Below are positions 2,480 through 37,949 of a stretch of DNA of 37,949 bases, piece after piece. The notes beneath the pieces were generated by a model. That model saw only the letters and a list, made by a program, of their open reading frames with translations. It made no database searches and was not told where the DNA came from. The translations under genes and the position numbers were made by a program. Numbering within the stretch: position 1 is the stretch's first letter; every line of letters begins with the position of its first letter. The stretch is from a virus, in the IMG/VR virus record IMGVR_UViG_3300027736_000106, positions 1-37,949 of that record, one strand, 5' to 3'.

Positions 2480-2492
2480 CTCACCCAGAAAG

Positions 2493-2516: not shown

Positions 2517-2562
2517 CGATGCATTGTGCCTTGTCCTTTTTTCTGGTCCCGATCAGAAATCT

Positions 2563-3428: not shown

Positions 3429-3643
3429 GCTTCTATCAACCATGATTTGATTCCCAGTAATTTAGAGGCCGTTAGGAGAGCGGCATGCTCGTCGCAGCCG
3501 CTGCATATTCTATCCATGCCGTGGTATACTTTGTATGGCATCATGTCCTCTGGTTTTGTAATCACATTGATATAGTGTCGCTTCATCCATTTGGATTTTC
3601 TCACCTCCACATCTTCTACTTCAAAAAATCTCTGCTGGCTCAT
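3425..3643 (-). CDS. Hypothetical protein, 72 aa, with duplicated 5' end (copy A)
   Basis: Begins MSQQRFFEVEDV and continues with a basic stretch (RKSKWMKRHY) and a CSGC pair. Family not recognised. Its first 12 codons plus one base are an exact copy of the start of the upstream homing-endonuclease-like gene. The longer open frame reaching to 3760 is out-of-frame read-through of that upstream gene, so the ATG at 3643 is the supported start. It overlaps the resolvase gene by 4 bp. Confidence 0.65.
   Translation of the reverse strand: MSQQRFFEVEDVEVRKSKWMKRHYINVITKPEDMMPYKVYHGMDRICSGCDEHAALLTASKLLGIKSWLIEA
3607..3643. repeat. 37-bp direct repeat, downstream copy (copy A)
   Basis: Identical to 4511-4547. 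Each copy runs on the minus strand from the ATG through codon 12 plus one base of its gene. The two copies flank the homing-endonuclease-like gene body. Confidence 0.9.
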
Positions 3644-4547: not shown

Positions 4548-4927
4548 ACTTGTGGTAGTGCTGGCATCTCAGCCCAGTAGGTTATGTAGTAGTCGATCTT
4601 TTCGCATGTATGTACTTCCTGCCAGCCGTCATGCTTGGTGTAGGTCGCCACATACATTATCTCACCGTCAGTCGCCAGCACAACTCGCATTGTGTCTGGA
4701 TACGGGCCTGCCTGCCAATCTATTGTCCATGCAGATGGTTCTTTTGCCAGCCTGTCACGCACATCTTGCGTTTTTTTAAGCCGAGCAAGAAGGTCTAATG
4801 ATGTCGTCCTTAATGATTTAACGGTCTTTCGCGCCTCGTCGCGCTCGTGTTCTAATTGTTGTGCGAACTCGGTAGGGACAACATGATTGCCTCGCGCTAG
4901 GTTGTCTGTTTCTGGTGTGTCAGTCAC
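4544..4927 (-). CDS. Phage hypothetical protein, 127 aa (copy A)
   Basis: Starts MTDTPETDNLARGNHVVPTEF and has a charged helical region (EHERDEARKTVKSL), the pattern of small early-region proteins common in temperate phages of Gram-negative bacteria. The C-terminal half is beta-rich with aromatic residues. No enzyme motif seen. Start and stop overlap both neighbours by 4 bp. Confidence 0.7.
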   Translation of the reverse strand: MTDTPETDNLARGNHVVPTEFAQQLEHERDEARKTVKSLRTTSLDLLARLKKTQDVRDRLAKEPSAWTIDWQAGPYPDTMRVVLATDGEIMYVATYTKHDGWQEVHTCEKIDYYITYWAEMPALPQV

Positions 4928-5202
4928 TTCAGCACCTCCTGCACCTCGATGCGTTCCCAGTTTGAATCACTATAGCAATTGTGCGAGATTTGGTGGGTAT
5001 ATACATTTTGATATATTACCCATGTTCTAGGTTCCGGCTTGATCCGGTAGTGTTCTGGCAAGTCGTAAAAACCGATTTCTTCAGTTTCTCCAAAGTCTTC
5101 CCAGTAAGAATTACCAAATTCGCCGGATTTGAATTGTAAGTTTTTACCATCCACCAATGCTTGCAAGAGTGGCAGAAATTCGTGTGCGTTGTGTTTCGTC
5201 AT
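4924..5202 (-). CDS. Phage hypothetical protein, 92 aa (copy A)
   Basis: Contains LPLLQALVDGKNLQ followed by YRIKPEPRTW, a combination seen in a widespread family of small uncharacterised phage proteins encoded near recombination genes. No catalytic residues recognised. Overlaps both neighbours by 4 bp. Confidence 0.7.
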   Translation of the reverse strand: MTKHNAHEFLPLLQALVDGKNLQFKSGEFGNSYWEDFGETEEIGFYDLPEHYRIKPEPRTWVIYQNVYTHQISHNCYSDSNWERIEVQEVLK

Positions 5203-5828
5203 GATGCCGCGAGTGCTTGAAGTTTTTCGGACGTTGCTTTAAGATATACATCGAATGCCTTGAGTCCTTCTAGCATCTGGGCGGTGTACTCGTCGCGCTG
5301 TACATAGACATGGAAGCTAGGCAAGCCACGGTGGTAGGCATAGAAGTGCCATCCTATCGCGCCGGTCACCGCGAGTGACCCGTGTACCTGGTCCCGATAC
5401 TCGTCTGGCAGTCCGCCGATCTGGTGGTAGGTCAGCAGCTTGCTTGCCCTCGGACATTTGATCTCGAGTCCTTCGCCTGTCTCTAGGATCAAACCGTCTG
5501 GCGAACATCCGAACAGGCCGTGTTTGCTCTTGGCAAAACCGATCGAGTCCACGAGTAGCCCGGTCAATTTGGAAAACTCTTGGATGGCCTCCGGCTCCTG
5601 CTCGATACCGCGCTGAATGTCCGGCGTGACAAACACCTTGGGGTCTGGATAACCAGCAATTTCCGCCAGCACCTGGCTCGTCGCCGTGATGCGCGCCTTG
5701 TGGCTCGTCTTATCGCTCTTGGTCAACCAGGCACCCATGCCGCTTGCCGTGAGGTGGCCGCGTCGTGCTTCAAACCATTCGTCGCTGCGTTGGTCGCAGT
5801 CGATCAATTCGCATTCTGGGTAGTTCAT
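5199..5828 (-). CDS. YqaJ/lambda-Exo-type viral exonuclease (copy A)
   Basis: Protein of 209 residues. QRSDEWFEARRGHLTAS (13-29) is the family N-terminal signature; RGIEQEPEA (73-81) supplies the first acidic residues; GCSPDGLI carries Asp111 and GLEIKCP carries Glu122 and Lys124, together the PD-(D/E)XK active site. This enzyme resects double-stranded ends 5' to 3', leaving 3' single strands for the annealing protein encoded immediately upstream in transcription order. The length matches the family. Confidence 0.93.
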   Translation of the reverse strand: MNYPECELIDCDQRSDEWFEARRGHLTASGMGAWLTKSDKTSHKARITATSQVLAEIAGYPDPKVFVTPDIQRGIEQEPEAIQEFSKLTGLLVDSIGFAKSKHGLFGCSPDGLILETGEGLEIKCPRASKLLTYHQIGGLPDEYRDQVHGSLAVTGAIGWHFYAYHRGLPSFHVYVQRDEYTAQMLEGLKAFDVYLKATSEKLQALAAS

Positions 5829-6442
5829 GCTGTTGCTCCGTTTAGGATTTCCTGTGAGTTTTTAGGCAGAGCGAACGACACCACTGCGGCCGGTGCGCTC
5901 GGTGTTACATCGCGCATGCCAGAAATGGTCCGCGCCTCGTCGTCGTCGTGAATCCCCGAGAATCCAAACGCCACCCGAGCGCACTGGATGAGCGCCTTGT
6001 GCCGCAGCATCCGCGTCTCCATCTTCCATGGGTCGGTGGCGCGTTTGCACTCGGCGAGGTACTCAGTGACCGAGGTAGGATGAGCGCGGTCTTTGCGGTG
6101 GATCGTGCAGGTCACGCTGACCAGCTTGCCCTCGTCGAATGACTCGACGAACTGGATGCCGTCCATGTGCGGATGGTCGTTGCACATCCGGATCCAGCCG
6201 TCGACTGATACCACCGGCACGATGCCGCCGCCTTTGTTTGGAAAAGCGTAGAGTTCCTTGAGCAGCGGGTTGAGGCCGTACTCATTTGCCACCACCACCA
6301 GGCTAAGCAACTCCTCGTTGGTCGCGCCTTTAAAGACGGTGTTTTTAAGAGTGGCCAGCAACTTGTCTGGATCGACCGAGTACTTCTCGGCCATGAGCGC
6401 CAGGGCAGACGTTTTTTGTGTTTTTTCAATTTCGTTTTTCAT
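5825..6442 (-). CDS. bet: Bet/RecT single-strand annealing protein (copy A)
   Basis: Protein of 205 residues with the Bet/RecT core: a helical start (LALMAEKYSVDPDKLLATLKNTVF), then EELLSLVVVANEYGLNPLLKELYAFP, GGGIVPVVSVDGWIRM and CTIHRKDR. It anneals complementary single strands made by the adjacent exonuclease, the pair forming a Red-type recombination system. Its C-terminus is shorter than that of lambda Bet. It overlaps the exonuclease gene by 4 bp. Confidence 0.93.
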   Translation of the reverse strand: MKNEIEKTQKTSALALMAEKYSVDPDKLLATLKNTVFKGATNEELLSLVVVANEYGLNPLLKELYAFPNKGGGIVPVVSVDGWIRMCNDHPHMDGIQFVESFDEGKLVSVTCTIHRKDRAHPTSVTEYLAECKRATDPWKMETRMLRHKALIQCARVAFGFSGIHDDDEARTISGMRDVTPSAPAAVVSFALPKNSQEILNGATA

Positions 6443-6464
6443 AAAAGTAAAAAGGTTATGGTGT

Positions 6465-6599
6465 CTATTTGGTGAGAATGAGAATGGTTATGGTCGCAAC
6501 CATAATGGTTATGGTCGCCAGCGATAACCACCCGAGGTGGTTCAGCCGTTGGCGGCGTTTACGCCTCTTGTAGTAGGTGATCATGCGTTCGTGGTTCAT
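6465..6599 (-). CDS. Small membrane peptide, 44 aa (copy A)
   Basis: Short frame beginning MNHERMITYYKRRKRRQRL: a strongly basic N-terminus followed by a hydrophobic helix (LATITIMVATITILIL) and a terminal TK, consistent with a single-pass membrane peptide with its N-terminus inside. The ATG directly follows the stop of the HTH gene. Internal DNA repeats GGTTATGGTCGC encode the repetitive hydrophobic part. Function unknown. Confidence 0.5.
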   Translation of the reverse strand: MNHERMITYYKRRKRRQRLNHLGWLSLATITIMVATITILILTK

Positions 6600-6833
6600 T
6601 TAGTAGACCAAGAAGGATGGGTCCGCTTTGGGTGCCGTGGCATGCAGCGCCTCGATGACGTCATCGTAGACGAATCGAATTAAGCGCCGCCGGGTGTACG
6701 AGTCGGAGGTCGAGGATGATGGCAAGTTGGTGTCGATCTTCGACGGGATCCGACCGGCGCGGTGCCATCTCAGCACCACCGCCGTGTTCATGCCGAGTAA
6801 CTCGGCGAGTTGTGCAGCGGTCAGCAGTTTCAT
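6600..6833 (-). CDS. Excisionase-like / MerR-type HTH DNA-binding protein (copy A)
   Basis: Protein of 77 residues beginning MKLLTAAQLAELLGMNTAVVLRWHRAGRIPSKI: a winged helix-turn-helix of the excisionase and AlpA kind, with the recognition helix around VVLRWHRAG. It is the first DNA-binding gene after the control region, where a recombination directionality factor would be expected. The ATG at 6833 overlaps the stop of the tiny gene before it (ATGA); upstream in-frame starts would run through that gene. A transcription regulator is the alternative. Confidence 0.65.
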   Translation of the reverse strand: MKLLTAAQLAELLGMNTAVVLRWHRAGRIPSKIDTNLPSSSTSDSYTRRRLIRFVYDDVIEALHATAPKADPSFLVY

Positions 6834-6910
6834 GCCTGCTGGTACATGACGGTGACCACAAGCCACACGGTGAGGTTGATTCCAACAAGGATGGCTAGCG
6901 TGATTTTCAT
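6830..6910 (-). CDS. Tiny membrane peptide, 26 aa (copy A)
   Basis: Frame of 26 codons starting MKITLAILVGINLTVWLV and ending QQA, essentially one transmembrane helix. The ATG overlaps the stop of the regulator gene before it and the TGA overlaps the HTH start, so it fits precisely in a chain of coupled genes. Function unknown. Confidence 0.45.
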   Translation of the reverse strand: MKITLAILVGINLTVWLVVTVMYQQA

Positions 6911-7086
6911 GACGACAGTTGACCCGTTAAGATTTCCAATCCTCTCAAGATAGAGAGGCGGATTACGTCGCTTTTTTTGAGACCGGTCGCGATGACTGAT
7001 GCCTCAATTTCAGCGTTTAATTGAGCGGAAATACGCACCGTAATCGGCACGTCGGTGTTGATAATTGCTTGTTCTTCATTAGCCAT
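6907..7086 (-). CDS. Ribbon-helix-helix regulator, leftward (copy A)
   Basis: Protein of 59 residues starting MANEEQAI. The strand VPITVRIS followed by helices LNAEIEASVIATG and KKSDVIRLSILRGLEIL is the Arc/MetJ/CopG ribbon-helix-helix fold. As the first leftward gene of the control region it could be an early-gene autoregulator or a repressor. The upstream extension to 7122 has no support because it would run into the operator. Confidence 0.75.
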   Translation of the reverse strand: MANEEQAIINTDVPITVRISAQLNAEIEASVIATGLKKSDVIRLSILRGLEILTGQLSS

Positions 7087-7194
7087 GCAAAAAACGTAAG
7101 ACAAACGTAATACAAACGTCAACGATTATTTTACAAAGACCAACAAATAATTATTGTTTGCTTACAAACGCATTATGTCTTAACGTGTTAACCC
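7087..7194. promoter_or_regulatory. Divergent control region with 11-bp tandem operator repeats (copy A)
   Basis: Gene-free AT-rich stretch between divergent regulator genes. Three tandem 11-bp units start at 7094 (ACGTAAGACAA), 7105 (ACGTAATACAA) and 7116 (ACGTCAACGAT). Near the rightward gene are an ACAAACG (7164-7170), an inverted relative of the unit around 7175-7186 and a TTAACGTGTTAA palindrome at 7180-7191, four bases before the ATG. Repeats one helical turn apart suit cooperative ribbon-helix-helix binding. Exact -10 and -35 boxes are not assigned. Confidence 0.6.
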
Positions 7195-7437
7195 ATGAAA
7201 AAAAATATGCTTAATTTTCGTGTCGATACTGAGATACTCGACTTACTAACGGAAGTAATGGTTATTTATAAAAAACCAAAATCAACGATGTGTAGGGATG
7301 CGTTAGCGTTAGGTTTGCAAACACTTATGGAGGTAAACACAAGCCATCTTGCCCTTGTACAACAAAAATATCTTGAATTACAAAACGGAAAAAATGGTAG
7401 TGCAGAAAAAACAAATTCTGACAAAGACCAAGAATGA
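7195..7437 (+). CDS. Ribbon-helix-helix-type regulator, rightward (copy A)
   Basis: Protein of 80 residues: strand MLNFRVDTEILDLL, then helices with STMCRDALALGLQTLME, followed by a polar tail rich in K, N, S and D. The first half fits a short ribbon-helix-helix domain. First rightward gene of the divergent pair and a candidate lysogeny repressor, because no CI-like helix-turn-helix repressor is present. Overlaps the next gene by 4 bp. Confidence 0.55.
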   Translation: MKKNMLNFRVDTEILDLLTEVMVIYKKPKSTMCRDALALGLQTLMEVNTSHLALVQQKYLELQNGKNGSAEKTNSDKDQE

Positions 7438-7622
7438 AAACAAACAAAGCACGCTCGTCTAACAAAACAGTTCTTGGCGTTTCAATGCCGATAGAGCTGA
7501 AAAATAAAATATTCAAACACGCACAGGCCGATCATCGGAACATGGCGCAATGGTGCGTTGTGCAGCTTGAAAAAGCAGTTCGCGAGATTGAAGAGAAAGA
7601 CAGCAAACCAGACAAAAAATAA
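7434..7622 (+). CDS. Arc/CopG-like ribbon-helix-helix protein (copy A)
   Basis: Protein of 62 residues: strand KTVLGVSMPIEL, helix KNKIFKHAQADH, then RNMAQWCVVQLEKAVREIEE, the Arc/CopG pattern, and a lysine-rich tail. It is translated from an ATG overlapping the previous gene. It may act with the previous protein in the lysogeny decision, or as an antitoxin-like regulator; no toxin partner is visible. Confidence 0.6.
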   Translation: MKTNKARSSNKTVLGVSMPIELKNKIFKHAQADHRNMAQWCVVQLEKAVREIEEKDSKPDKK

Positions 7623-7625
7623 TAT

Positions 7626-7660
7626 TTTAGTGGCAACTATTTGGCAACTTTGCCACTAAA
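7626..7660. terminator. Inverted repeat beyond the rightward regulators (copy A)
   Basis: TTTAGTGGCAA at 7626-7636 and TTGCCACTAAA at 7650-7660 are perfect complements around a 13-base loop. It lies just after the stop of the rightward operon, so it may end that transcript, but no T-run follows. It also contains TGGCAA motifs repeated on the other side of the att core, so it may be an integrase arm site. Confidence 0.45.
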
Positions 7661-7699
7661 TCATAAACTTCCTAGTGTTCATATAGGGTCGGTTAATTC

Positions 7700-7744
7700 T
7701 TCGTAATGAATAGGTCGTCGGTTCAATTCCGACCAGCGGCTCCA
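7700..7744 (+). other. attP-type core: 3' half of tRNA-Thr(CGT)
   Basis: From TTCGTAA (anticodon loop, anticodon CGT) the sequence reads as a correct tRNA 3' half: stem strand TGAAT, variable AGGTC, T-arm GTCGG-TTCAATT-CCGAC, acceptor strand CAGCGGC, then TCCA. Upstream there is no D-arm and no GCCGCTG acceptor strand, so it is not an intact tRNA gene. Integrases of this type recombine in the anticodon loop and restore the tRNA on one side. Phage genes lie on both sides, so this is a phage-phage (attP-like) junction. Confidence 0.85.
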
Positions 7745-7775
7745 AAATTCCTTGTACTTGCTAGGATTTGAAGTT

Positions 7776-7842
7776 ACTCAAAAGCACTCAAAAGCACTCT
7801 TCAAATGGCAATAGTGGCAATTGTGGCAACCAATTCTGGCAC
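7776..7842. repeat. Short tandem repeats beside att core, possible integrase arm sites
   Basis: ACTCAAAAGC is repeated at 7776-7785 and 7786-7795. TGGCAA occurs at 7806, 7815 and 7824 at an exact 9-bp spacing, with a TGGCAC at 7837. The same TGGCAA motif occurs left of the core at 7631 and 7642 and inverted at 7650. Motifs on both sides of the core are what arm-type integrase sites look like. Confidence 0.45.
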
Positions 7843-7845
7843 CAA

Positions 7846-8892
7846 ATGGGTAGGTTAAATACATTCAAACCGACGCTCACCGAAGGAGGTTGGATGGTAT
7901 CGATCGGGCCATCGATGACGGCATCGGCTAAGCGGGTGAGAAAATTTTTCACCACCGAGTCTGCGGCCAAGAAATTCGCGGCCGCAGTTAAATCTCAGCA
8001 TGCTGCTGGCATGCGTGGCAGCATGATTCCCGCCGCGCTTGCCATCGATGCGGTTCGCGCTGCGGCGCTGCTGGAAGGCACCGGCATCACCATTTTTGAA
8101 GCTGCCTCTATGGCGGTGGCGAAGTTCAACTCCTCGAGCGCAGAGTTGTTTTGCGATCGATACCTGCGGACCATCACCGCGATGGAAAATGCCTGGTCAA
8201 ACTCGTACCGACTCAGCATGACCGCGATCCCTCGTTGGTTGCCTCCAGAGTTTATGCAGCGTAGGTGCCACGGCATCGACCGCGTCGCCATCGAGGCCGC
8301 TTTACGGGTCGTCCAACCGGCGCTGAAACAGTCTAGCCTCGACATGAAATCGACGCGAATTCTGGCGGTGGTGAATTTCCGACCTCGCCACCGTAAAGCC
8401 TCTGCGATCGAGATCCTCAGCGTCGCCCAGTGCGCTCGATTGCTGCGTGTCTGTGAGTGTGCTGCTGAGCGCCGTGTGGTTGCGCTGTTGCTCTTTGCCG
8501 GAATCCGACCGGACGCGCAGAACGGGGAGATTGGTCGCCTCGAGTGGTCGGCGATCACTGATCAGATTTACATCGCCGCCCAGATCAGTAAGACCAGCAG
8601 CGACCGCTACATCCCGATCAGCGCCCGGCTCGGTCGTCTGCTGCGCGGCCACCCGTTGTCTGGACCAGTTACTCCCCCGAACTGGCGGCGAGCATGGCAG
8701 CGCATTCGTCGCGATGCTGGCATCAGCGAAATGCACGATGTCTTGAGGCACACGTTCGCCTCAAACTATCTTGCGGCCCACGGTGAGGAAGCAACGAAAA
8801 ATGCCATGGGTCACACCCAAGGATCGGTGACTCTGTTTAGGCACTACCGCCGTGCGATTTTGCCAGCCGACGGCATCAAGTTTTTTCACTGA
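7846..8892 (+). CDS. int: Tyrosine recombinase integrase
   Basis: Protein of 348 residues from the ATG at 7846. A core-binding domain is followed by a catalytic domain with FAGIRPD (Arg221), HDVLRHTF (His297, Arg301), GHTQ (His323) and the nucleophile in FRHYRR (Tyr334). It inserts phage DNA at the tRNA-Thr attachment core 100 bp upstream. The frame stays open back to a TTG at 7768, but those 26 codons are the low-complexity TGGCAA repeat (reading SSNGNSGNCGN), which looks like arm-site DNA rather than protein. The gene converges on the endolysin gene with a 7-bp overlap. Confidence 0.9.
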   Translation: MGRLNTFKPTLTEGGWMVSIGPSMTASAKRVRKFFTTESAAKKFAAAVKSQHAAGMRGSMIPAALAIDAVRAAALLEGTGITIFEAASMAVAKFNSSSAELFCDRYLRTITAMENAWSNSYRLSMTAIPRWLPPEFMQRRCHGIDRVAIEAALRVVQPALKQSSLDMKSTRILAVVNFRPRHRKASAIEILSVAQCARLLRVCECAAERRVVALLLFAGIRPDAQNGEIGRLEWSAITDQIYIAAQISKTSSDRYIPISARLGRLLRGHPLSGPVTPPNWRRAWQRIRRDAGISEMHDVLRHTFASNYLAAHGEEATKNAMGHTQGSVTLFRHYRRAILPADGIKFFH

Positions 8893-28765: not shown

Positions 28766-28818
28766 TTAGCAAATGCAGTCAATATGCATTTATTGCATGG
28801 GTATCGACACGGGTGCAT
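28762..28818 (-). pseudogene. 5' remnant of the HNH endonuclease gene (copy B)
   Basis: The TAATG junction after the helicase is followed by HPCRYPC, identical to the HNH start in copy A, then diverges (NKCILTAFAN) to a stop. Only about 24 bases of homology remain (28795-28818). It is the footprint of a recombination event. Confidence 0.8.
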
Positions 28819-30059
28819 TAGCGATGATTAAACCGTTGATACTGCCCGTCCAATGTTAATTTCATCGTCGAGTCGCGTTGACCATTCCTGAGCTTACAAA
28901 TCTTAATCCCGTCCTCGACGATCATCAGCAGAGCATCGGCGTCCTGCTCGATGGCCCGTGACTCCCGCGTCTGGCCTGAGTCGTTGAGTTGAGTCGCGCT
29001 GATCACCGGACACTGTAGTCGCTTTGCCAGTTGCTTCAGCCCACCGCTCACCTTGGCGATCTCCTCTTCTCTGCTTTCGCCCCGCGCTCTAGATCCACGG
29101 ATGAGTTGCAGGTAGTCCACCACCACCAGCGATATGCTACCGTTCACATCACGGATGCGCTCGGCCTCCGTCTCGATAGTATCCAGCGTTTGTCCTGGCG
29201 AGCAATCCACCCACAGGTTGCTGGCGATTAAATTTTCCACCCCGCGCTTGATCTTTGCCAACTCTCCAGTGTTCGCACTGCGAGGTTGAGTGATGGTCCC
29301 GTAGTCCACATGCACCATGGTCGAGATTAGTCTGCCTATAATCTCGTTCGCCATCATCTCCAGGCTAAACACCGCCACCGTTTTGCCGTTGGCAATAAAC
29401 TCGGATGCGATCTGCAACATCAGCACAGATTTGCCTCGGCTCGGTTTGCCTCCGATCACCCAGAATTCACCCGCCCTCATACCGCCGCTGTGCGCGTCCA
29501 GTTCGGCGATGCCGGTGCTAGCCCCGGGGATGTCACCGGCGGCGTGATCGTTCTGGTATGAATTGATAAACGCGTTTGCCGCGTCCTTAGCGGTCACAGC
29601 TCTTAGTTTGCCGCTGACGGCCGCTGTGAGTGCCGCTAAGGTGCCTTTAGCCGTCTCGATTGCCTCTTCGCTGTCATTTGCCCCATCGAGCGTCACCGCG
29701 CCCGTGATGGCTATCCTGCGAGCTTTCGCCTCTCTGAGTTGTTGCGACCACTTCGACCACCCAGCCGGGTTGATCGCGTAGGTGTAGGCCTCGTACACCG
29801 CCGCTGGTCCACCGGATCGGTCCAATGTCCCATCGAGCGCCATCCCCTGGACCAGCGCCACCATGTCGATCTCGCCCTCAATCTCGGGATCGGCTTTGTA
29901 GAAATCGATCACCGCCGACCTCAGCGGTCCGAGGTGCCAGAATGCCGCCTCATCGAGTCCCTCCGCTGCGGCCCGTCCCACGAATCCTCTCGGGTTCTGG
30001 ATCATGCAACTCACCACGGCCTTCTCTGCCATCACCGCGCTCGGCATTGCTCGGCTCAT
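28818..30059 (-). CDS. dnaB: Replicative DNA helicase, DnaB-like (copy B)
   Basis: 413 residues, same motifs as the copy A helicase at 418-1659 (Walker A GGKPSRGKS, VVVDYLQLI). About ten conservative differences, for example ISG to VSG near residue 148 and DLAK to ELAK near 266. Overlaps the initiator gene by 4 bp; stop TAA instead of TGA. Confidence 0.93.
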   Translation of the reverse strand: MSRAMPSAVMAEKAVVSCMIQNPRGFVGRAAAEGLDEAAFWHLGPLRSAVIDFYKADPEIEGEIDMVALVQGMALDGTLDRSGGPAAVYEAYTYAINPAGWSKWSQQLREAKARRIAITGAVTLDGANDSEEAIETAKGTLAALTAAVSGKLRAVTAKDAANAFINSYQNDHAAGDIPGASTGIAELDAHSGGMRAGEFWVIGGKPSRGKSVLMLQIASEFIANGKTVAVFSLEMMANEIIGRLISTMVHVDYGTITQPRSANTGELAKIKRGVENLIASNLWVDCSPGQTLDTIETEAERIRDVNGSISLVVVDYLQLIRGSRARGESREEEIAKVSGGLKQLAKRLQCPVISATQLNDSGQTRESRAIEQDADALLMIVEDGIKICKLRNGQRDSTMKLTLDGQYQRFNHR

Positions 30060-30766
30060 ATCCCGACCTCCGCTGAGGTGAAATTCCGTCCTAGTCCGAC
30101 ATCCGACGAGGTGAAGCTGTCTTTCTTCATCGGCTTCTGCTCAAACACACCTTGCCAGCCCATCCGAATGCTAGTCTCGATGGCCGTAATCGCGTTCACC
30201 GCTCCCATCGCGCTGAATTTCTTGAGTTGCGCGTTCTCGGTCATCGGCGACCACGCTTTGAGGTTCGCCTGTTTTCGATATTCTTTCCAATTGTTCCACG
30301 CTGCTCTGAATGCATCCGTGTCGAGAGAAATGGGAAACTCCTTCTTTATATCTTCTCTTCTCTTCTCTGGTAACGGTTTTTGTAACGGTGGAGGTGTTAC
30401 ATCTGTAACGCTACGAGCGTTACATGCTCGGCTTTTTGCCACCCTTCTGTTCGTATTTACACGGTTTTTTGCTGTTTGTCCGTTGTGACGATCAAAGTGC
30501 TTCAAAATCAAACGGTCGTTTAATTCTTCAATCCACCCGACATTTTCCATTGCTGTAACGAAGTTTGTAACACCCGTGTAACGATTAAGTAACGCTCGCA
30601 CCGTTACATTTGCGTTACCATCATCGGTGTGATTATCGAACCAAGTCCAGATTCGGATCAGCTTTCCGACGATGGCATCGGGATCGATACCCAACTCAGT
30701 TGCCATTTCCATGACCTCCGGCTTATCCGGTAAAGCATGCTCAATCTTGATCCAGTCTCCGGCCAT
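30056..30766 (-). CDS. Replication initiator / helicase-loader-like protein (copy B)
   Basis: 236 residues. The last 95 residues or so (from KKEFPISLDTDAF) nearly equal the copy A protein; the N-terminal part (MAGDWIKIEHALPDKPEVMEMATELGI) is homologous but strongly diverged, and the linker differs (AKSRACNARSVTDVTPPP). The diverged half is the presumed DNA-binding half. The gene contains eleven GTAAC-type repeats that shape its protein sequence (repeated VT pairs). Confidence 0.75.
   Translation of the reverse strand: MAGDWIKIEHALPDKPEVMEMATELGIDPDAIVGKLIRIWTWFDNHTDDGNANVTVRALLNRYTGVTNFVTAMENVGWIEELNDRLILKHFDRHNGQTAKNRVNTNRRVAKSRACNARSVTDVTPPPLQKPLPEKRREDIKKEFPISLDTDAFRAAWNNWKEYRKQANLKAWSPMTENAQLKKFSAMGAVNAITAIETSIRMGWQGVFEQKPMKKDSFTSSDVGLGRNFTSAEVGI
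30369..30619. repeat. Putative replication origin with TGTAACG iterons (copy B)
   Basis: Eleven copies of a GTAAC core in two clusters. First cluster: 30369, 30381, 30395 (inverted), 30404, 30418 (inverted). Second: 30554, 30566, 30577, 30588, 30602 (inverted), 30613 (inverted). Consensus TGTAACG. An AT-rich and T-rich stretch lies between them (30425-30550), where melting could occur. Confidence 0.7.
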
Positions 30767-30768
30767 GG

Positions 30769-30903
30769 TTAAGCAGCTTTCTGGGTGTAGGTTTTGTGTG
30801 CCACCACCAAGGCATCTAGCGCCTTGGTTAGCTCGGTCTTCAGCTTCTCGATCATCCGCTGTGCGTCGAGTAGCTCGTCCTGTAGTTGTTGGTTGGTTTT
30901 CAT
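30769..30903 (-). CDS. Small coiled-coil protein, 44 aa (copy B)
   Basis: Same length as the copy A gene at 2345-2479, with Ala to Thr, Arg to Lys and Glu to Gln type changes only. Conservation through a divergent region supports a real gene. The accessory cassette was added immediately upstream of its ATG. Confidence 0.6.
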   Translation of the reverse strand: MKTNQQLQDELLDAQRMIEKLKTELTKALDALVVAHKTYTQKAA

Positions 30904-30941
30904 GGGTATCATTTGGTCAGTTAGGTAATATTTAATCCTGC

Positions 30942-31850
30942 TTAGGGTTTATTAACGCTATAAATTAAACGGTCGGCATGGCATCGCAGTGGATAGCAAT
31001 GGCAGATCAAAACTTTGCCTTTCAGGAATAGAAATCCATTGGTGATTGATGGCTTATACGGCAGGTAATGATTAGCATAAGCATCACAAACAGCATCACG
31101 GTCGCCATCTGCACCCAGTACAAATGGATTGCCAAATAGCGTACCACGATCAACACGCACTGCCTTTGCGTTATTCTCAGCCCATGCGATGAGGTTCTTG
31201 TCCCGCTGTTGATTGGCAACTACGGCTTGTCCTGATTCGACCTTTGCCTTGCGTTCTTTTTCGTCATCAAGCCATGGGTCAGTTGGGATAGCACGAACAG
31301 CCTTGGTTGCGTCCTGCATGGTCATCTTGCCAGCCTTAACTTTCTCAAAGACTTCAGGCGCAGCAGTCTTCATCTTAACCGCCTGATTGACGTAGGTGCG
31401 GTTCGTGTTGAAAAGCTCGGCGGCTTTGGCGGATGTCTCATTTGTGTTATCATTCTTAGGCTGTCCCGCAATTTTTTGCGGGATAGGTTCGGATTGTGTA
31501 GCCGCCTGCTTCGCTCGCCTATCACTCTCCACCGTTAGCCTAATCATAACCAGCAGGTCATCGGCATCGGCAGCAATGCACGCCCACTGGCCCTTGTTCA
31601 GGTTGCGGCGTTTGTTGGTGCGCATCACGAAGGCGATGGCCTCGGTATCGGTGCCGGTAAACATGACGGTCGGCGGCTTGATTCCAAGCTCTTGGCAAGC
31701 CTTCGTGCGGTTCCATCCGTCCAGCACCTCTCCTTGATAAAGAGTGATAGGTTGCTTTTGATCGAATCCGTTCGTGCGGATGTCATCGAGCAGGCGGGTA
31801 AAATCCTCGGCCTTAGCTTCGGGGAATATGTTGTATTTGTGTTTGTTCAT
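30942..31850 (-). CDS. ParB-like domain fused to DUF4326 (copy B specific)
   Basis: 302 residues. Residues 1-80 form a ParB-type nucleotide-binding domain: PITLYQGEVLDGWNRTKACQ has the GEVLDGWNR signature in place of the chromosomal GERR box, followed by FVMRTNKRRNL. Residues 135-185 give a helix-turn-helix (SAKAAELFNTNRTYVNQAVKM). Residues 225-302 match DUF4326: VDRGTLFGNPFVLGADGDRDAV and ICHCYPLRCHADRL, with conserved Cys and His that could bind metal. No ParA partner is encoded, so plain partition is unlikely. Possible roles: regulation, or DNA or nucleotide modification against host defence. Confidence 0.75.
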   Translation of the reverse strand: MNKHKYNIFPEAKAEDFTRLLDDIRTNGFDQKQPITLYQGEVLDGWNRTKACQELGIKPPTVMFTGTDTEAIAFVMRTNKRRNLNKGQWACIAADADDLLVMIRLTVESDRRAKQAATQSEPIPQKIAGQPKNDNTNETSAKAAELFNTNRTYVNQAVKMKTAAPEVFEKVKAGKMTMQDATKAVRAIPTDPWLDDEKERKAKVESGQAVVANQQRDKNLIAWAENNAKAVRVDRGTLFGNPFVLGADGDRDAVCDAYANHYLPYKPSITNGFLFLKGKVLICHCYPLRCHADRLIYSVNKP

Positions 31851-32650
31851 ATATTATATGTATCAAAAAGCAATGGCTGCCCATCAGTCATGCGAGAGTT
31901 GGTTGTTGCTTGCTGGCCATAAGGCCAGTTGCCATCGCCAATAATAGAATGTTTAAAAAGATTTACGGAAACAGCCTCTCTTTTTTTAAGTCTATGTAGA
32001 TGGACACAAAGCCAAACATTACGCTTGTCTTTCATATTGCCCATAAGCATCCAAAAATCATAGCTTGGATCATTAACGCGCAGGTTGTTCATCAAATCCC
32101 AAACAGATTCAGGGTTGCGCCTTAAGCATTCATAAATTTCTCTTCCACCAAGATGAGATTTGTGAAATACACCTTGCGCCGATTTCCAAGAAACATATGG
32201 CTTTTGCCAATGTCTACCTTGTGTTACTATCCATCCGCATTCAAAATCATCTTCAGGTATGTTTTTAGGGATTTTCTGAGAGATTGCAAATTCACAGTCT
32301 CCCCAAGAAGGTTTCACAAAAGCAATGCTAGACCTGTTCGTGTTCTGATATTTGATTGGGTCATAGTATCCTGATTTAATGACTACAGAGTCTAATATTT
32401 CTCGCTTTTGATCTGGGTCATAAACTTTGCCAATCAAATTATAACCTACAATCCGATACGTCTCATGGCGAGGATCATTGCCCTTTTCGATTGTAATACT
32501 AACTACACCCCAAACAGGAAATAGAAGGTGTGCAGGTATAGGATAAAGGCGGATAAATCCTAGTTCTCTGGTCAAAACAATAGCACACATAGTTTTGCCA
32601 TGTTTCCCGGTATCGTTTGGCGCACCCACGCCCATAATAATGGCTTCCAT
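31847..32650 (-). CDS. Hypothetical protein of unknown family, 267 aa (copy B specific)
   Basis: Starts MEAIIMGVGAPNDTGKHGKTM at 32650, the first base where the two phage copies diverge; the extension to 32698 would run through the conserved stem-loop. Contains GYYDPIKYQNTNRSS, DFECGWIVTQGRHWQKPYVSW and DFWMLMGNMKDKRNVW, many aromatic residues, and ends DTYNI. I recognise no family. It overlaps the ParB gene by 4 bp, so the two are surely co-expressed. Confidence 0.7.
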   Translation of the reverse strand: MEAIIMGVGAPNDTGKHGKTMCAIVLTRELGFIRLYPIPAHLLFPVWGVVSITIEKGNDPRHETYRIVGYNLIGKVYDPDQKREILDSVVIKSGYYDPIKYQNTNRSSIAFVKPSWGDCEFAISQKIPKNIPEDDFECGWIVTQGRHWQKPYVSWKSAQGVFHKSHLGGREIYECLRRNPESVWDLMNNLRVNDPSYDFWMLMGNMKDKRNVWLCVHLHRLKKREAVSVNLFKHSIIGDGNWPYGQQATTNSRMTDGQPLLFDTYNI

Positions 32651-32666
32651 TTTCACACCCAGAAAG

Positions 32667-32690
32667 CCCCACCGAGTTATCCCGGTGAGG
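32667..32690 (-). terminator. Stem-loop before the accessory cassette (copy B)
   Basis: Same hairpin as 2493-2516 of copy A. Here it lies upstream of the ParB cassette, 17 bases before the unknown gene's start, so it may attenuate cassette expression. Confidence 0.45.
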
Positions 32691-32736
32691 CGATGCATTG
32701 TGCCTTGTCCTGTTTTCTGGTCCCGATCAGAAATCT

Positions 32737-33114
32737 TTAGAATGGGATATCGTCGTCCTCATTCTTTTCGTATACCTTTGCTGGTGGCTTAGCTCCGCTT
32801 TGCATTGCGGATCGTTGCGGTGCCGGTGATGGTGCCGCGCCTGGTTTCTTGCGGTCAAATTTCCACGCTTGCAAACTGACGTAATATTTCCCGTTGTACT
32901 CGTTGCCTCGGAGGTTGAATGAACAACTGATGCTATCTCCGAGCAGGTAGGATTCTAGATATAAAACGTCATCTTTGATCGCCTCGATTTTAATGTTCTG
33001 TGGATACTTGCCGTCCTCGATCTGGATGACAAATTCCCGCTTTTTAAAGCCGCTTTCAAACACCTGCACATCGGCGATGTGATGCAGGATTCCTTGTATT
33101 TCGTATTGGTTCAT
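32737..33114 (-). CDS. DUF3127-like OB-fold protein (copy B)
   Basis: As 2563-2940, with a few substitutions in the C-terminal half (FYVS to YYVS, a PAP to PSP change). The acidic DDDIPF tail is kept. The last difference from copy A lies at 32974; from 32975 on the copies are identical by eye. Confidence 0.82.
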   Translation of the reverse strand: MNQYEIQGILHHIADVQVFESGFKKREFVIQIEDGKYPQNIKIEAIKDDVLYLESYLLGDSISCSFNLRGNEYNGKYYVSLQAWKFDRKKPGAAPSPAPQRSAMQSGAKPPAKVYEKNEDDDIPF

Positions 33115-33602
33115 AGATGGTTAAGTCGGCCGTATTCGGCGATGAGTGCTGCGTCGATGAGTCCACCGTGTGGCACCGTGGATCTCTTTGTTGCCAAGAA
33201 CGTCTCGGTCGGCCATAGCTGCCGCACCTTTACTGCGGCCGCTGGCTTGGTGTCGCCCTTAGCACACCCAGCGATCATGACCTTCTGCCACTTCTGTGGG
33301 CTGATGCGGTGATGGCGAATGCCTAGGCACTCCAGCACCGCTCGGATGCAACCGTAGCTGTCCCACATCGAGCAGAGCGCCATCACACCTGGTGAGTGTT
33401 TGCCAGGCGTTTCAAGAATCGCTGTCATGGTGTGCGGCGGTCCCACTAGGTATAGCCACTCCTTGAGTGCCACCGGATCGACCTCGTTGCCCTTGACTTG
33501 GCTACGGGTCGGCATCAGCACCATGTCGATCGGCGGCCCCGGGTGACTACTAATCGCCACGAGCGCCCCGCTGAGTCCGTTGTCGATGCCGATGTAGATC
33601 AT
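33111..33602 (-). CDS. RuvC-like resolvase (copy B)
   Basis: Identical to 2937-3428. Part of the exact 4.97-kb repeat. Confidence 0.82.
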   Translation of the reverse strand: MIYIGIDNGLSGALVAISSHPGPPIDMVLMPTRSQVKGNEVDPVALKEWLYLVGPPHTMTAILETPGKHSPGVMALCSMWDSYGCIRAVLECLGIRHHRISPQKWQKVMIAGCAKGDTKPAAAVKVRQLWPTETFLATKRSTVPHGGLIDAALIAEYGRLNHL

Positions 33603-33817
33603 GCTTCTATCAACCATGATTTGATTCCCAGTAATTTAGAGGCCGTTAGGAGAGCGGCATGCTCGTCGCAGCCGCTGCATATTCTATCCATGCCGTGGTA
33701 TACTTTGTATGGCATCATGTCCTCTGGTTTTGTAATCACATTGATATAGTGTCGCTTCATCCATTTGGATTTTCTCACCTCCACATCTTCTACTTCAAAA
33801 AATCTCTGCTGGCTCAT
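33599..33817 (-). CDS. Hypothetical protein, 72 aa (copy B)
   Basis: Identical to 3425-3643, including the duplicated 5' end MSQQRFFEVEDV. Confidence 0.65.
   Translation of the reverse strand: MSQQRFFEVEDVEVRKSKWMKRHYINVITKPEDMMPYKVYHGMDRICSGCDEHAALLTASKLLGIKSWLIEA
33781..33817. repeat. 37-bp direct repeat, downstream copy (copy B)
   Basis: Same as 3607-3643; partner at 34685-34721. Confidence 0.9.
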
Positions 33818-34721
33818 TTGATTTGTTCTTTTCGTTCTGCTGAAAATAATCGCGCCCGAGTAGATCCATTCCGCCTGCGTCAAGCTCCAGCTTGCTGACG
33901 GCAGTCCACCCGCGATAAGAACAAGAACGCCCATCCTTTTTCAGAAGATCGGTGATTCCTCCCGCAATCCTTTTCCAGAACGGAGCGCGAGATTCAGGAC
34001 GATCATCCACGAATCGGTGTTTGTTTTGCCGCGCCCATTCCGCAAGATTACTGAACTTGTGAGGGTTGCCGTATGGGTCACGGATGATCCAGACCTTAGC
34101 GGCGAGGTGATCGAGCATTCCGGTTGCGTTACCGGCCTTGCGGCGGATTTCGTCCAACTGGCCAGACTCTTTCCATTCCGCATTCTGCTTTTTGAGATTT
34201 GCCGACATTTTAGGCTTCAGCGTTTCCATGTCTCGCATCGCTCTGATTGAGTCCATCTGTTCCCGCGTCCCCCCGACTTTCGTCCCGTGATATTTCCCTT
34301 CCTTCCATGCTTTCCGCACGCCTTCGCCTGTGGCGCGGCAAGCATCTTGCGATCTCTTTCTGCCGCGCAATGACTTGATCCGATTTTCGATGAACTCAGG
34401 AGTCTGATTGACCGCGTGCTGCATCTTGCCTTCGCCATAGGCTCTTTTGACGCCTTCGGCTTGTTTTGCCTTCCATTCGTCGCCGTGTTTCTTTCCACGA
34501 TGCGCAGCGCCTGGGTCATAGCATCCTTTCGCGTATAGCCGATCCAGTTCCGCTAGATTCCCGCATCCACATTTGCACGGCGTTTCTTCACGCCTAACCC
34601 TTTCGCCTAGCGTCCCTTTGCCTGTTTCCCAAGCGCGTTTCATAGATGCAGACCTTTTGCGGTTCGCATCTGCCTTTTTCGCCGCCACATCTTCTACTTC
34701 AAAAAATCTCTGCTGGCTCAT
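33795..34721 (-). CDS. Homing-endonuclease-like protein (copy B)
   Basis: Identical to 3621-4547. The 37-bp repeats again flank the insert. Confidence 0.7.
   Translation of the reverse strand: MSQQRFFEVEDVAAKKADANRKRSASMKRAWETGKGTLGERVRREETPCKCGCGNLAELDRLYAKGCYDPGAAHRGKKHGDEWKAKQAEGVKRAYGEGKMQHAVNQTPEFIENRIKSLRGRKRSQDACRATGEGVRKAWKEGKYHGTKVGGTREQMDSIRAMRDMETLKPKMSANLKKQNAEWKESGQLDEIRRKAGNATGMLDHLAAKVWIIRDPYGNPHKFSNLAEWARQNKHRFVDDRPESRAPFWKRIAGGITDLLKKDGRSCSYRGWTAVSKLELDAGGMDLLGRDYFQQNEKNKSNEPAEIF
34685..34721. repeat. 37-bp direct repeat, upstream copy (copy B)
   Basis: Same as 4511-4547. Confidence 0.9.
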
Positions 34722-35101
34722 ACTTGTGGTAGTGCTGGCATCTCAGCCCAGTAGGTTATGTAGTAGTCGATCTTTTCGCATGTATGTACTTCCTGCCAGC
34801 CGTCATGCTTGGTGTAGGTCGCCACATACATTATCTCACCGTCAGTCGCCAGCACAACTCGCATTGTGTCTGGATACGGGCCTGCCTGCCAATCTATTGT
34901 CCATGCAGATGGTTCTTTTGCCAGCCTGTCACGCACATCTTGCGTTTTTTTAAGCCGAGCAAGAAGGTCTAATGATGTCGTCCTTAATGATTTAACGGTC
35001 TTTCGCGCCTCGTCGCGCTCGTGTTCTAATTGTTGTGCGAACTCGGTAGGGACAACATGATTGCCTCGCGCTAGGTTGTCTGTTTCTGGTGTGTCAGTCA
35101 C
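34718..35101 (-). CDS. Phage hypothetical protein, 127 aa (copy B)
   Basis: Identical to 4544-4927. Confidence 0.7.
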   Translation of the reverse strand: MTDTPETDNLARGNHVVPTEFAQQLEHERDEARKTVKSLRTTSLDLLARLKKTQDVRDRLAKEPSAWTIDWQAGPYPDTMRVVLATDGEIMYVATYTKHDGWQEVHTCEKIDYYITYWAEMPALPQV

Positions 35102-35376
35102 TTCAGCACCTCCTGCACCTCGATGCGTTCCCAGTTTGAATCACTATAGCAATTGTGCGAGATTTGGTGGGTATATACATTTTGATATATTACCCATGTT
35201 CTAGGTTCCGGCTTGATCCGGTAGTGTTCTGGCAAGTCGTAAAAACCGATTTCTTCAGTTTCTCCAAAGTCTTCCCAGTAAGAATTACCAAATTCGCCGG
35301 ATTTGAATTGTAAGTTTTTACCATCCACCAATGCTTGCAAGAGTGGCAGAAATTCGTGTGCGTTGTGTTTCGTCAT
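35098..35376 (-). CDS. Phage hypothetical protein, 92 aa (copy B)
   Basis: Identical to 4924-5202. Confidence 0.7.
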   Translation of the reverse strand: MTKHNAHEFLPLLQALVDGKNLQFKSGEFGNSYWEDFGETEEIGFYDLPEHYRIKPEPRTWVIYQNVYTHQISHNCYSDSNWERIEVQEVLK

Positions 35377-36002
35377 GATGCCGCGAGTGCTTGAAGTTTT
35401 TCGGACGTTGCTTTAAGATATACATCGAATGCCTTGAGTCCTTCTAGCATCTGGGCGGTGTACTCGTCGCGCTGTACATAGACATGGAAGCTAGGCAAGC
35501 CACGGTGGTAGGCATAGAAGTGCCATCCTATCGCGCCGGTCACCGCGAGTGACCCGTGTACCTGGTCCCGATACTCGTCTGGCAGTCCGCCGATCTGGTG
35601 GTAGGTCAGCAGCTTGCTTGCCCTCGGACATTTGATCTCGAGTCCTTCGCCTGTCTCTAGGATCAAACCGTCTGGCGAACATCCGAACAGGCCGTGTTTG
35701 CTCTTGGCAAAACCGATCGAGTCCACGAGTAGCCCGGTCAATTTGGAAAACTCTTGGATGGCCTCCGGCTCCTGCTCGATACCGCGCTGAATGTCCGGCG
35801 TGACAAACACCTTGGGGTCTGGATAACCAGCAATTTCCGCCAGCACCTGGCTCGTCGCCGTGATGCGCGCCTTGTGGCTCGTCTTATCGCTCTTGGTCAA
35901 CCAGGCACCCATGCCGCTTGCCGTGAGGTGGCCGCGTCGTGCTTCAAACCATTCGTCGCTGCGTTGGTCGCAGTCGATCAATTCGCATTCTGGGTAGTTC
36001 AT
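35373..36002 (-). CDS. YqaJ/lambda-Exo-type exonuclease (copy B)
   Basis: Identical to 5199-5828; active-site Asp111, Glu122 and Lys124 present. Confidence 0.93.
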   Translation of the reverse strand: MNYPECELIDCDQRSDEWFEARRGHLTASGMGAWLTKSDKTSHKARITATSQVLAEIAGYPDPKVFVTPDIQRGIEQEPEAIQEFSKLTGLLVDSIGFAKSKHGLFGCSPDGLILETGEGLEIKCPRASKLLTYHQIGGLPDEYRDQVHGSLAVTGAIGWHFYAYHRGLPSFHVYVQRDEYTAQMLEGLKAFDVYLKATSEKLQALAAS

Positions 36003-36616
36003 GCTGTTGCTCCGTTTAGGATTTCCTGTGAGTTTTTAGGCAGAGCGAACGACACCACTGCGGCCGGTGCGCTCGGTGTTACATCGCGCATGCCAGAAAT
36101 GGTCCGCGCCTCGTCGTCGTCGTGAATCCCCGAGAATCCAAACGCCACCCGAGCGCACTGGATGAGCGCCTTGTGCCGCAGCATCCGCGTCTCCATCTTC
36201 CATGGGTCGGTGGCGCGTTTGCACTCGGCGAGGTACTCAGTGACCGAGGTAGGATGAGCGCGGTCTTTGCGGTGGATCGTGCAGGTCACGCTGACCAGCT
36301 TGCCCTCGTCGAATGACTCGACGAACTGGATGCCGTCCATGTGCGGATGGTCGTTGCACATCCGGATCCAGCCGTCGACTGATACCACCGGCACGATGCC
36401 GCCGCCTTTGTTTGGAAAAGCGTAGAGTTCCTTGAGCAGCGGGTTGAGGCCGTACTCATTTGCCACCACCACCAGGCTAAGCAACTCCTCGTTGGTCGCG
36501 CCTTTAAAGACGGTGTTTTTAAGAGTGGCCAGCAACTTGTCTGGATCGACCGAGTACTTCTCGGCCATGAGCGCCAGGGCAGACGTTTTTTGTGTTTTTT
36601 CAATTTCGTTTTTCAT
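35999..36616 (-). CDS. bet: Bet/RecT annealing protein (copy B)
   Basis: Identical to 5825-6442. Confidence 0.93.
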   Translation of the reverse strand: MKNEIEKTQKTSALALMAEKYSVDPDKLLATLKNTVFKGATNEELLSLVVVANEYGLNPLLKELYAFPNKGGGIVPVVSVDGWIRMCNDHPHMDGIQFVESFDEGKLVSVTCTIHRKDRAHPTSVTEYLAECKRATDPWKMETRMLRHKALIQCARVAFGFSGIHDDDEARTISGMRDVTPSAPAAVVSFALPKNSQEILNGATA

Positions 36617-36638
36617 AAAAGTAAAAAGGTTATGGTGT

Positions 36639-36773
36639 CTATTTGGTGAGAATGAGAATGGTTATGGTCGCAACCATAATGGTTATGGTCGCCAGCGATA
36701 ACCACCCGAGGTGGTTCAGCCGTTGGCGGCGTTTACGCCTCTTGTAGTAGGTGATCATGCGTTCGTGGTTCAT
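36639..36773 (-). CDS. Small membrane peptide, 44 aa (copy B)
   Basis: Identical to 6465-6599. Confidence 0.5.
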   Translation of the reverse strand: MNHERMITYYKRRKRRQRLNHLGWLSLATITIMVATITILILTK

Positions 36774-37007
36774 TTAGTAGACCAAGAAGGATGGGTCCGC
36801 TTTGGGTGCCGTGGCATGCAGCGCCTCGATGACGTCATCGTAGACGAATCGAATTAAGCGCCGCCGGGTGTACGAGTCGGAGGTCGAGGATGATGGCAAG
36901 TTGGTGTCGATCTTCGACGGGATCCGACCGGCGCGGTGCCATCTCAGCACCACCGCCGTGTTCATGCCGAGTAACTCGGCGAGTTGTGCAGCGGTCAGCA
37001 GTTTCAT
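36774..37007 (-). CDS. Excisionase-like HTH protein (copy B)
   Basis: Identical to 6600-6833. Confidence 0.65.
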   Translation of the reverse strand: MKLLTAAQLAELLGMNTAVVLRWHRAGRIPSKIDTNLPSSSTSDSYTRRRLIRFVYDDVIEALHATAPKADPSFLVY

Positions 37008-37084
37008 GCCTGCTGGTACATGACGGTGACCACAAGCCACACGGTGAGGTTGATTCCAACAAGGATGGCTAGCGTGATTTTCAT
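37004..37084 (-). CDS. Tiny membrane peptide, 26 aa (copy B)
   Basis: Identical to 6830-6910. Confidence 0.45.
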   Translation of the reverse strand: MKITLAILVGINLTVWLVVTVMYQQA

Positions 37085-37260
37085 GACGACAGTTGACCCG
37101 TTAAGATTTCCAATCCTCTCAAGATAGAGAGGCGGATTACGTCGCTTTTTTTGAGACCGGTCGCGATGACTGATGCCTCAATTTCAGCGTTTAATTGAGC
37201 GGAAATACGCACCGTAATCGGCACGTCGGTGTTGATAATTGCTTGTTCTTCATTAGCCAT
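37081..37260 (-). CDS. Ribbon-helix-helix regulator, leftward (copy B)
   Basis: Identical to 6907-7086. Confidence 0.75.
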   Translation of the reverse strand: MANEEQAIINTDVPITVRISAQLNAEIEASVIATGLKKSDVIRLSILRGLEILTGQLSS

Positions 37261-37368
37261 GCAAAAAACGTAAGACAAACGTAATACAAACGTCAACGAT
37301 TATTTTACAAAGACCAACAAATAATTATTGTTTGCTTACAAACGCATTATGTCTTAACGTGTTAACCC
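37261..37368. promoter_or_regulatory. Divergent control region (copy B)
   Basis: Identical to 7087-7194; the 11-bp units start at 37268, 37279 and 37290. Confidence 0.6.
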
Positions 37369-37611
37369 ATGAAAAAAAATATGCTTAATTTTCGTGTCGA
37401 TACTGAGATACTCGACTTACTAACGGAAGTAATGGTTATTTATAAAAAACCAAAATCAACGATGTGTAGGGATGCGTTAGCGTTAGGTTTGCAAACACTT
37501 ATGGAGGTAAACACAAGCCATCTTGCCCTTGTACAACAAAAATATCTTGAATTACAAAACGGAAAAAATGGTAGTGCAGAAAAAACAAATTCTGACAAAG
37601 ACCAAGAATGA
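37369..37611 (+). CDS. Ribbon-helix-helix-type regulator, rightward (copy B)
   Basis: Identical to 7195-7437. Confidence 0.55.
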   Translation: MKKNMLNFRVDTEILDLLTEVMVIYKKPKSTMCRDALALGLQTLMEVNTSHLALVQQKYLELQNGKNGSAEKTNSDKDQE

Positions 37612-37796
37612 AAACAAACAAAGCACGCTCGTCTAACAAAACAGTTCTTGGCGTTTCAATGCCGATAGAGCTGAAAAATAAAATATTCAAACACGCACAG
37701 GCCGATCATCGGAACATGGCGCAATGGTGCGTTGTGCAGCTTGAAAAAGCAGTTCGCGAGATTGAAGAGAAAGACAGCAAACCAGACAAAAAATAA
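37608..37796 (+). CDS. Arc/CopG-like protein (copy B)
   Basis: Identical to 7434-7622. Confidence 0.6.
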   Translation: MKTNKARSSNKTVLGVSMPIELKNKIFKHAQADHRNMAQWCVVQLEKAVREIEEKDSKPDKK

Positions 37797-37799
37797 TAT

Positions 37800-37834
37800 T
37801 TTAGTGGCAACTATTTGGCAACTTTGCCACTAAA
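37800..37834. terminator. Inverted repeat beyond the rightward regulators (copy B)
   Basis: Identical to 7626-7660, with the left-arm TGGCAA motifs. Confidence 0.45.
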
Positions 37835-37873
37835 TCATAAACTTCCTAGTGTTCATATAGGGTCGGTTAATTC

Positions 37874-37918
37874 TTCGTAATGAATAGGTCGTCGGTTCAA
37901 TTCCGACCAGCGGCTCCA
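37874..37918 (+). other. Second att core: 3' half of tRNA-Thr(CGT)
   Basis: Identical to 7700-7744, and the 31 bases that follow also match 7745-7775 up to the window end. This may be another attP-type junction, or attR if the shared core extends past the tRNA into host DNA. Confidence 0.8.
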
Positions 37919-37949
37919 AAATTCCTTGTACTTGCTAGGATTTGAAGTT

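Follow-up and report, generated by a model that had tools for sequence, protein, structure and literature searches.

A two-gene cassette inserted in one of two repeated viral segments

The viral record IMGVR_UViG_3300027736_000106, a stretch of 37,949 bases that we analysed whole and call the window, carries a two-gene cassette on its minus strand at positions 30904..32652. Self-BLAST showed that the two ends of the window repeat each other: 2479-7775 of copy A and 32653-37949 of copy B are 99.8% identical without gaps, positions 395-1969 match 28795-30368 at 95%, and 2320-2479 of copy A match 30743-30903 of copy B at 94%. Copy B has 1,749 extra bases (30904-32652) that copy A lacks at 2479|2480, and because the self-BLAST matches and the junction sequences bracket this interval, the cassette is an exact insertion. 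Its edges are the start codon of a small coiled-coil gene (30769..30912, minus strand) on one side and, on the other, a stem-loop (32666..32691, minus strand) that follows a DUF3127/SSB-like gene (32737..33114, minus strand; PF11325 at 1.6e-21, phrog_4932). The stem-loop marks the upstream edge and belongs to the site rather than to the cargo, being kept in copy A, in copy B and in two related contigs (L124 and L125). The cassette is placed inside the replication operon, between the SSB-like and replication-initiator genes, and its guanine-plus-cytosine (GC) content is low (45% vs. 51%), with that of gene 2 at 40%.

Gene 1 (30942..31850, minus strand) encodes a 302-residue fusion of a ParB-like domain, a helix-turn-helix (HTH) and DUF4326, and gene 2 (31847..32650, minus strand) encodes a 267-residue, predicted dual-OB-fold protein of the PDC-M19B family; stop and start codons overlap by 4 bp in the sequence ATGA (31847..31850, minus strand). 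An earlier, sequence-only reading of this DNA had placed the pair in copy B and not in copy A, between the coiled-coil gene and the stem-loop, with a 4-bp overlap, and its coordinates and description proved right.

The same site holds different cargo in L124 and L125, which are relatives of this phage with flanks about 95% identical. Both contigs have another two-gene cargo between the stem-loop and the coiled-coil gene, consisting in L124 (5473-7124) of genes for 210 and 164 residues from the phrog_4652 and phrog_15946 families, and in L125 (5512-6863) of a repeat-rich gene and a gene for 194 residues. BLAST matched 30743-30922 to L125 6864-7042, and the junctions revealed a 19-bp scar (30904..30922, minus strand), the first 19 bases past the coiled-coil start codon, that the cassette shares with the 3' end of the otherwise different L125 cargo. 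As 30904-30922 matches the end of that cargo, this suggests that the cassette replaced cargo of this kind by recombination. Within the L124 cargo region, positions 6128-6658 consist of GC-rich short tandem repeats that are open in several frames.

The two genes are kept together across viral contigs

Patterns for ParB alone, together with scans for gene 1 and gene 2, yielded, besides the window, 19 distinct viral contigs with a ParB-HTH-DUF4326 protein, several of them mutually close, so that the independent lineages number about a dozen. Gene 2 lay directly upstream on the same strand in all 19, with an overlap of up to 14 bp or a gap of at most 61 bp, except for one of 282 bp in L022. Protein identity ranged from 34 to 74%, and the ratio of nonsynonymous to synonymous substitution rates (dN/dS) was 0.03-0.13 for gene 2 and 0.08-0.27 for gene 1, so that both genes are under purifying selection. 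Given this identity and dN/dS values of 0.03-0.27, the finding is not due to chance. Divergence of gene 2 correlated with that of the DUF4326 domain (Pearson 0.46) and with that of the ParB domain (0.36), with partial correlations of 0.33 and 0.07, which hints, weakly but consistently, that DUF4326 is the functional partner of gene 2. The pair mostly adjoined replication genes in the other contigs (DnaB/primase, clamp, SSB, exonuclease); in L004 it lay between the terminase and portal genes. A PADLOC match to Csx1 in L024 and weak Pfam matches to RVE6 and HTH_8 were set aside as chance.

These results confirmed that the cassette is a conserved, mobile two-gene module. The sequence-only reading had described a self-contained accessory system, which the obligate pairing, the cargo-swap site and movement between phages strongly support, and had taken rare adjacency of the homologues elsewhere as speaking against it, the reverse of what was found in 19/19 contigs. 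Its suggestion of DNA or nucleotide modification, or of anti-defence, is plausible.

Gene 1 joins a ParB-like fold and HTH to DUF4326

The C-terminus of gene 1 was assigned with certainty to DUF4326 on its profile match (PF14216, E=3e-15; 57 bits against a gathering score of 25). The domain spans residues 226-295 (30966..31175, minus strand) and contains the signature CxCxPxxCH in the form CHCYPxxCH, in which C283, H284, C285, Y286, P287, C290 and H291 were invariant among 18 sequences. In the AlphaFold model of gene 1 (predicted local distance difference test score, pLDDT, 82), this part resembled dual-specificity phosphatases weakly (Z about 3), in agreement with PMC9503650, which places DUF4326 in the rhodanese-phosphatase superfamily.

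The N-terminal ParB domain fell below the Pfam threshold, and TIGR00180 and PF02195 were below cut-off; PHROG ParB families matched it, and in fold comparison it resembled Myxococcus xanthus ParB-CDP (Z 10.9, root-mean-square deviation [rmsd] 1.7 over 79 residues). This ParB-CTPase-like fold comprises residues 1-103 (31542..31850, minus strand), with a conserved DGWNR sequence that is invariant in the 18 sequences and holds the GxxR phosphate motif (GWNR, with G45 and R48). A hypervariable linker (residues 105-138) joins it to a KorB/ParB-type HTH at residues 139-190 (31281..31436, minus strand), recognised from the conservation profile and from fold matches extending to residue 189. These analyses showed gene 1 to be a ParB-type nucleotide-binding fold, an HTH and DUF4326, kept together with gene 2. 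Among 398 Pseudomonadota genomes sampled evenly across the phylum, no full-length ParB-HTH-DUF4326 protein was found.

No ParA gene was found next to gene 1, whose neighbours are the coiled-coil, initiator, DnaB, DUF3127 and RuvC genes, so that a ParB domain without ParA, joined to an HTH and a Cys/His-rich DUF4326 as first described from sequence, was borne out by PF14216, the PHROG ParB families, the fold and the neighbour list. This bears on the possibility that the cassette is a replication, copy-control or partition factor, with a plasmid-like ParB that would segregate the phage genome or control its replication. The ParB-HTH module does resemble plasmid proteins labelled 'replication/partition related', and the insertion has SSB-like and initiator genes on its two sides; however, ParA is not adjacent, the cassette is dispensable for replication, since copy A lacks it and close relatives have unrelated cargo in its place, and the L004 pair sits between terminase and portal genes. 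We consider such a role highly improbable, and set a partition system aside for its missing ParA neighbour and the dispensability of the cassette.

Gene 2 is a predicted dual-OB protein

Gene 2 matched the PADLOC PDC-M19B profile PDLC04508 (E=3.3e-4; relatives from 7.7e-7 in L002 to 1e-6) and phrog_25907. In direct tblastn, gene 2 had no match among phages and found distant relatives among plasmids. The profile built from the phage proteins recovered these plasmid relatives at E values of 3e-22 to 8e-7, which makes their homology secure, and DUF488-linked homologues at E 1e-22 to 1e-6. The PDC-M19B matches of the distant relatives reach 2e-62, and P11, C22, R34, P37, W47, D59, R61, G204 and P243 are common to them and gene 2. 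Pfam DuOB (PF22557) was reached below threshold by gene 2 relatives (E 6e-4 and 2e-3) and not by the window protein itself. Pattern scans with the single gene 2 sequence gave no match in viral contigs, those with gene 2 or with the profile of the phage proteins gave none in cellular genomes, and a pattern scan for the protein of cyanophage KBS-S-2A gave no match. Searches of PDB sequences returned nothing useful, and their matches to a SAKe designed protein and to FlgM were set aside as chance.

Fold comparison of the AlphaFold model of gene 2 independently yielded OB-fold proteins. The N-terminal OB fold (residues 1-77; 32420..32650, minus strand) matched an archaeal RPA OB domain with Z 9.6 and rmsd 1.9 over 74 residues, and the whole-length matches were dual-OB DNA binders, namely telomere-end-binding protein alpha, LEF-3 and HIN-200. 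Confidence is lower for the second OB fold than for the N-terminal one, as it depends on the whole-length HIN-200 and LEF-3 matches at rmsd 5-7. Profile and model together showed gene 2 to be a PDC-M19B-family homologue with two predicted OB folds, of the type that binds single-stranded DNA or DNA ends.

The sequence-only reading could not place this protein, which was only partly right, since it now falls in the dual-OB PDC-M19B family, and that family is a predicted, related one, not the well-known unrelated family that the reading had considered. Profile searches and structure prediction, run on both proteins, thus gave ParB/DUF4326 for gene 1 and dual-OB for gene 2.

The dual-OB partner is constant and the DNA-targeting domain varies

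A gene 2-family profile found 80 bacterial loci, in 79 of which a DUF488 gene adjoins the dual-OB gene. Ten of the 398 sampled genomes had a dual-OB gene, each (10/10) with DUF488 adjacent. DUF488 is the sister domain of DUF4326. The neighbour of the dual-OB gene is a ParB-HTH-DUF488 fusion in archaeal plasmids of S. shibatae (pBEU9E1) and H. walsbyi (PL100), and an HTH-DUF488 protein in Streptomyces. Among cultured phages, cyanophage KBS-S-2A has a DUF4326 and dual-OB pair (CPKG_00025/CPKG_00024), and Gordonia phage Nymphadora has a dual-OB protein (gp43) and a DUF488 protein (gp42) beside its repressor and integrase. The latter, gp42 (L211:6816-7268), adjoins gp43 and is labelled a 'HipA toxin', yet it is a DUF488 protein (1e-29). 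Since the family's neighbours are arranged in this way, the constant element is the dual-OB protein with a DUF488- or DUF4326-type domain, and the DNA-targeting part varies.

The same ParB-HTH module was fused to DNA methyltransferases in seven viral contigs, five of the MT-A70 group (L025-L029) and two of the N6_N4 type (L030, L032); Pfam searches covered one or two members of the MT-A70 group, whose C-terminus the others share. Gene 2 was present in none of these seven, against 19/19 contigs with the DUF4326 fusion. Since the ParB-HTH module is joined to a DNA methyltransferase in some proteins and to DUF4326 in others, we infer that DUF4326 most likely acts on DNA too.

This pattern also bears on a reading in terms of NAD (nicotinamide adenine dinucleotide)- or ADP-ribose-type signals, by which DUF4326 would remove a defence nucleotide signal and the ParB-HTH part would merely regulate transcription. 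Published predictions (PMC9503650, PMC7824862) have DUF4326 acting on ribose-linked phosphates and linking NAD signalling to DNA modification. In the present family, however, DUF4326 shares a protein with DNA-binding modules and has an obligate dual-OB partner, and the domains found in the cassette include none linked to NAD, which makes signal processing improbable.

A proposed action on DNA

That the two cassette proteins act on DNA as a pair is, in our judgement, very probable. In the mechanism we propose, the ParB-HTH part would load onto double-stranded DNA close to a site that it recognises, a step that cytidine triphosphate (CTP) or another nucleoside triphosphate (NTP) may gate, and the dual-OB protein, seen only together with DUF4326 or DUF488, would present single strands, nicks or ends. 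The Cys-containing DUF4326, of the rhodanese/phosphatase superfamily, might then alter the phosphate or sugar of the presented DNA, with protection of the replicating phage DNA, or counter-defence, as the most likely outcome. Loading gated by NTP is plausible because an archaeal ParB-HTH-DUF488 fusion binds CTP (PMC12704722). The predicted action of DUF4326 on ribose-linked phosphates and its predicted link to DNA modification also speak for this mechanism. Protection or counter-defence is favoured by the position of the cassette inside the replication operon, which points to a role in the lytic cycle, and by its being swapped like accessory cargo.

Taken as a whole, with loading, presentation, DUF4326 chemistry and protection or counter-defence all included, this mechanism is tentative, its chances falling a little short of even. 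Chemistry at DNA ends specifically is possible, with the balance leaning against it; DNA-end processing has reportedly been proposed for this RapZ-C/DUF488/DUF4326 clade. Of similar standing, and offered as a speculative model, is a phage-specific DNA-modification or DNA-end-processing system in which a ParB-type clamp would load the DUF4326 enzyme, the dual-OB protein would present strands or ends, the reaction would be exchangeable with that of methyltransferases, and phage DNA would be shielded from host nucleases.

Several observations weigh against the proposed mechanism. To our knowledge no enzyme activity has been assigned to DUF4326, and stand-alone DUF4326 proteins occur in many phages in which no dual-OB relative was found. 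The ENxxR hydrolysis motif lacks its glutamate, reading TNKRR with Asn and Arg kept in all gene 1 sequences, and for this reason NTP hydrolysis by gene 1 is doubtful. A search for a conserved parS-like palindrome shared between the loci found no perfect one of 14-16 bp. The divergence correlation between gene 2 and DUF4326 is weak (Pearson 0.46), and the AlphaFold model of gene 2 is modest (predicted template modelling score, pTM, 0.65), with its last 40 residues unreliable.

Other features of the repeated ends

The window represents either prophages in tandem or a single circular map in two strain copies that assembly merged. A tRNA 3'-end fragment, att-like, lies at 7640-7775 just before the integrase gene (7768-8892) and occurs again at the window end (37814-37949). 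The replication-initiator genes (1656-2342 and 30056-30766) have common 3' parts and diverge at 1970-2320 and 30369-30742, a divergence that is a domain swap adjoining the cassette. The overlapping open reading frames 33599-33934 and 33795-34721 both hold the start MSQQRFFEVEDV by way of a 47-bp repeat that is also present in copy A.

Comparison with known and predicted systems

Prophage-borne defence or superinfection exclusion, by which the cassette would shield a lysogen from other phages as PADLOC predicts for PDC-M19, is favoured by the PDC-M19 label and by the Nymphadora context. Gene 2 matches PDC-M19B, its usual neighbour DUF488 matches PDC-M19A, this temperate phage has an integrase, and the dual-OB/DUF488 pair of Nymphadora lies beside an immunity repressor and an integrase. 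The pair in the window, however, lies in a replication operon, shares its strand with the genes of lytic replication and shows no promoter excess of its own, and PDC status reflects guilt by embedding among candidates that are mostly untested (PMC12988326), so that we regard a defence role as rather unlikely. We found no demonstrated function for any member of the predicted pair.

We retain action on DNA as our preferred reading, in the form of a phage-borne system that would modify DNA or process its ends, probably for counter-defence or defence between phages. The cassette is a new phage-associated form of a computationally predicted pair, dual-OB with DUF488. The widespread predicted pair has a phage form with a predicted DUF4326 enzyme domain and an exchangeable DNA-targeting domain, from which a testable hypothesis on what DUF488 and DUF4326 do can be drawn; KBS-S-2A and Nymphadora, as cultured phages that carry the pair, are amenable to deletion and assay. 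The first description had taken the cassette for a candidate undescribed system. This does not stand for the dual-OB/DUF488 pairing, already in PADLOC-DB as a candidate defence, but does for the version with ParB-HTH-DUF4326 and a dual-OB protein, which we did not find described.

Like PDC-M19, the cassette has a PDC-M19B component, in the divergent homologue gene 2, next to a partner of the RapZ-C/DUF488/DUF4326 clade. It differs in having DUF4326 in place of DUF488, fused to ParB-HTH, in its same-strand overlapping genes and in its location in a phage replication operon; gene 1 matched neither DUF488 nor PDC-M19A. DuOB is likewise a dual-OB family, which the gene 2 relatives approach and the window protein does not match. 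The C-terminus of gene 1 is a clear member of the DUF4326 rhodanese-phosphatase clade of PMC9503650 and PMC7824862. These papers cover fusions to SLOG, Macro and NADAR domains and to replication and restriction-modification proteins, and their accessible passages do not mention a ParB fusion paired with a dual-OB protein. The phage ParB-HTH-methyltransferase fusions share the N-terminal module of gene 1 at 33-42% identity but, unlike gene 1, end in MT-A70 or N6_N4 and have no dual-OB partner. The KBS-S-2A pair is also phage-borne, with a DUF4326 fusion, a dual-OB homologue and overlapping genes, whereas another N-terminal DNA-binding domain replaces ParB and the gene order is reversed. The archaeal pair has the ParB fold, the HTH, a rhodanese-like domain and the adjacent dual-OB gene in common with the cassette, and differs from it in carrying DUF488 rather than DUF4326, in having a ParB and HTH that are canonical by Pfam, and in being plasmid-borne.
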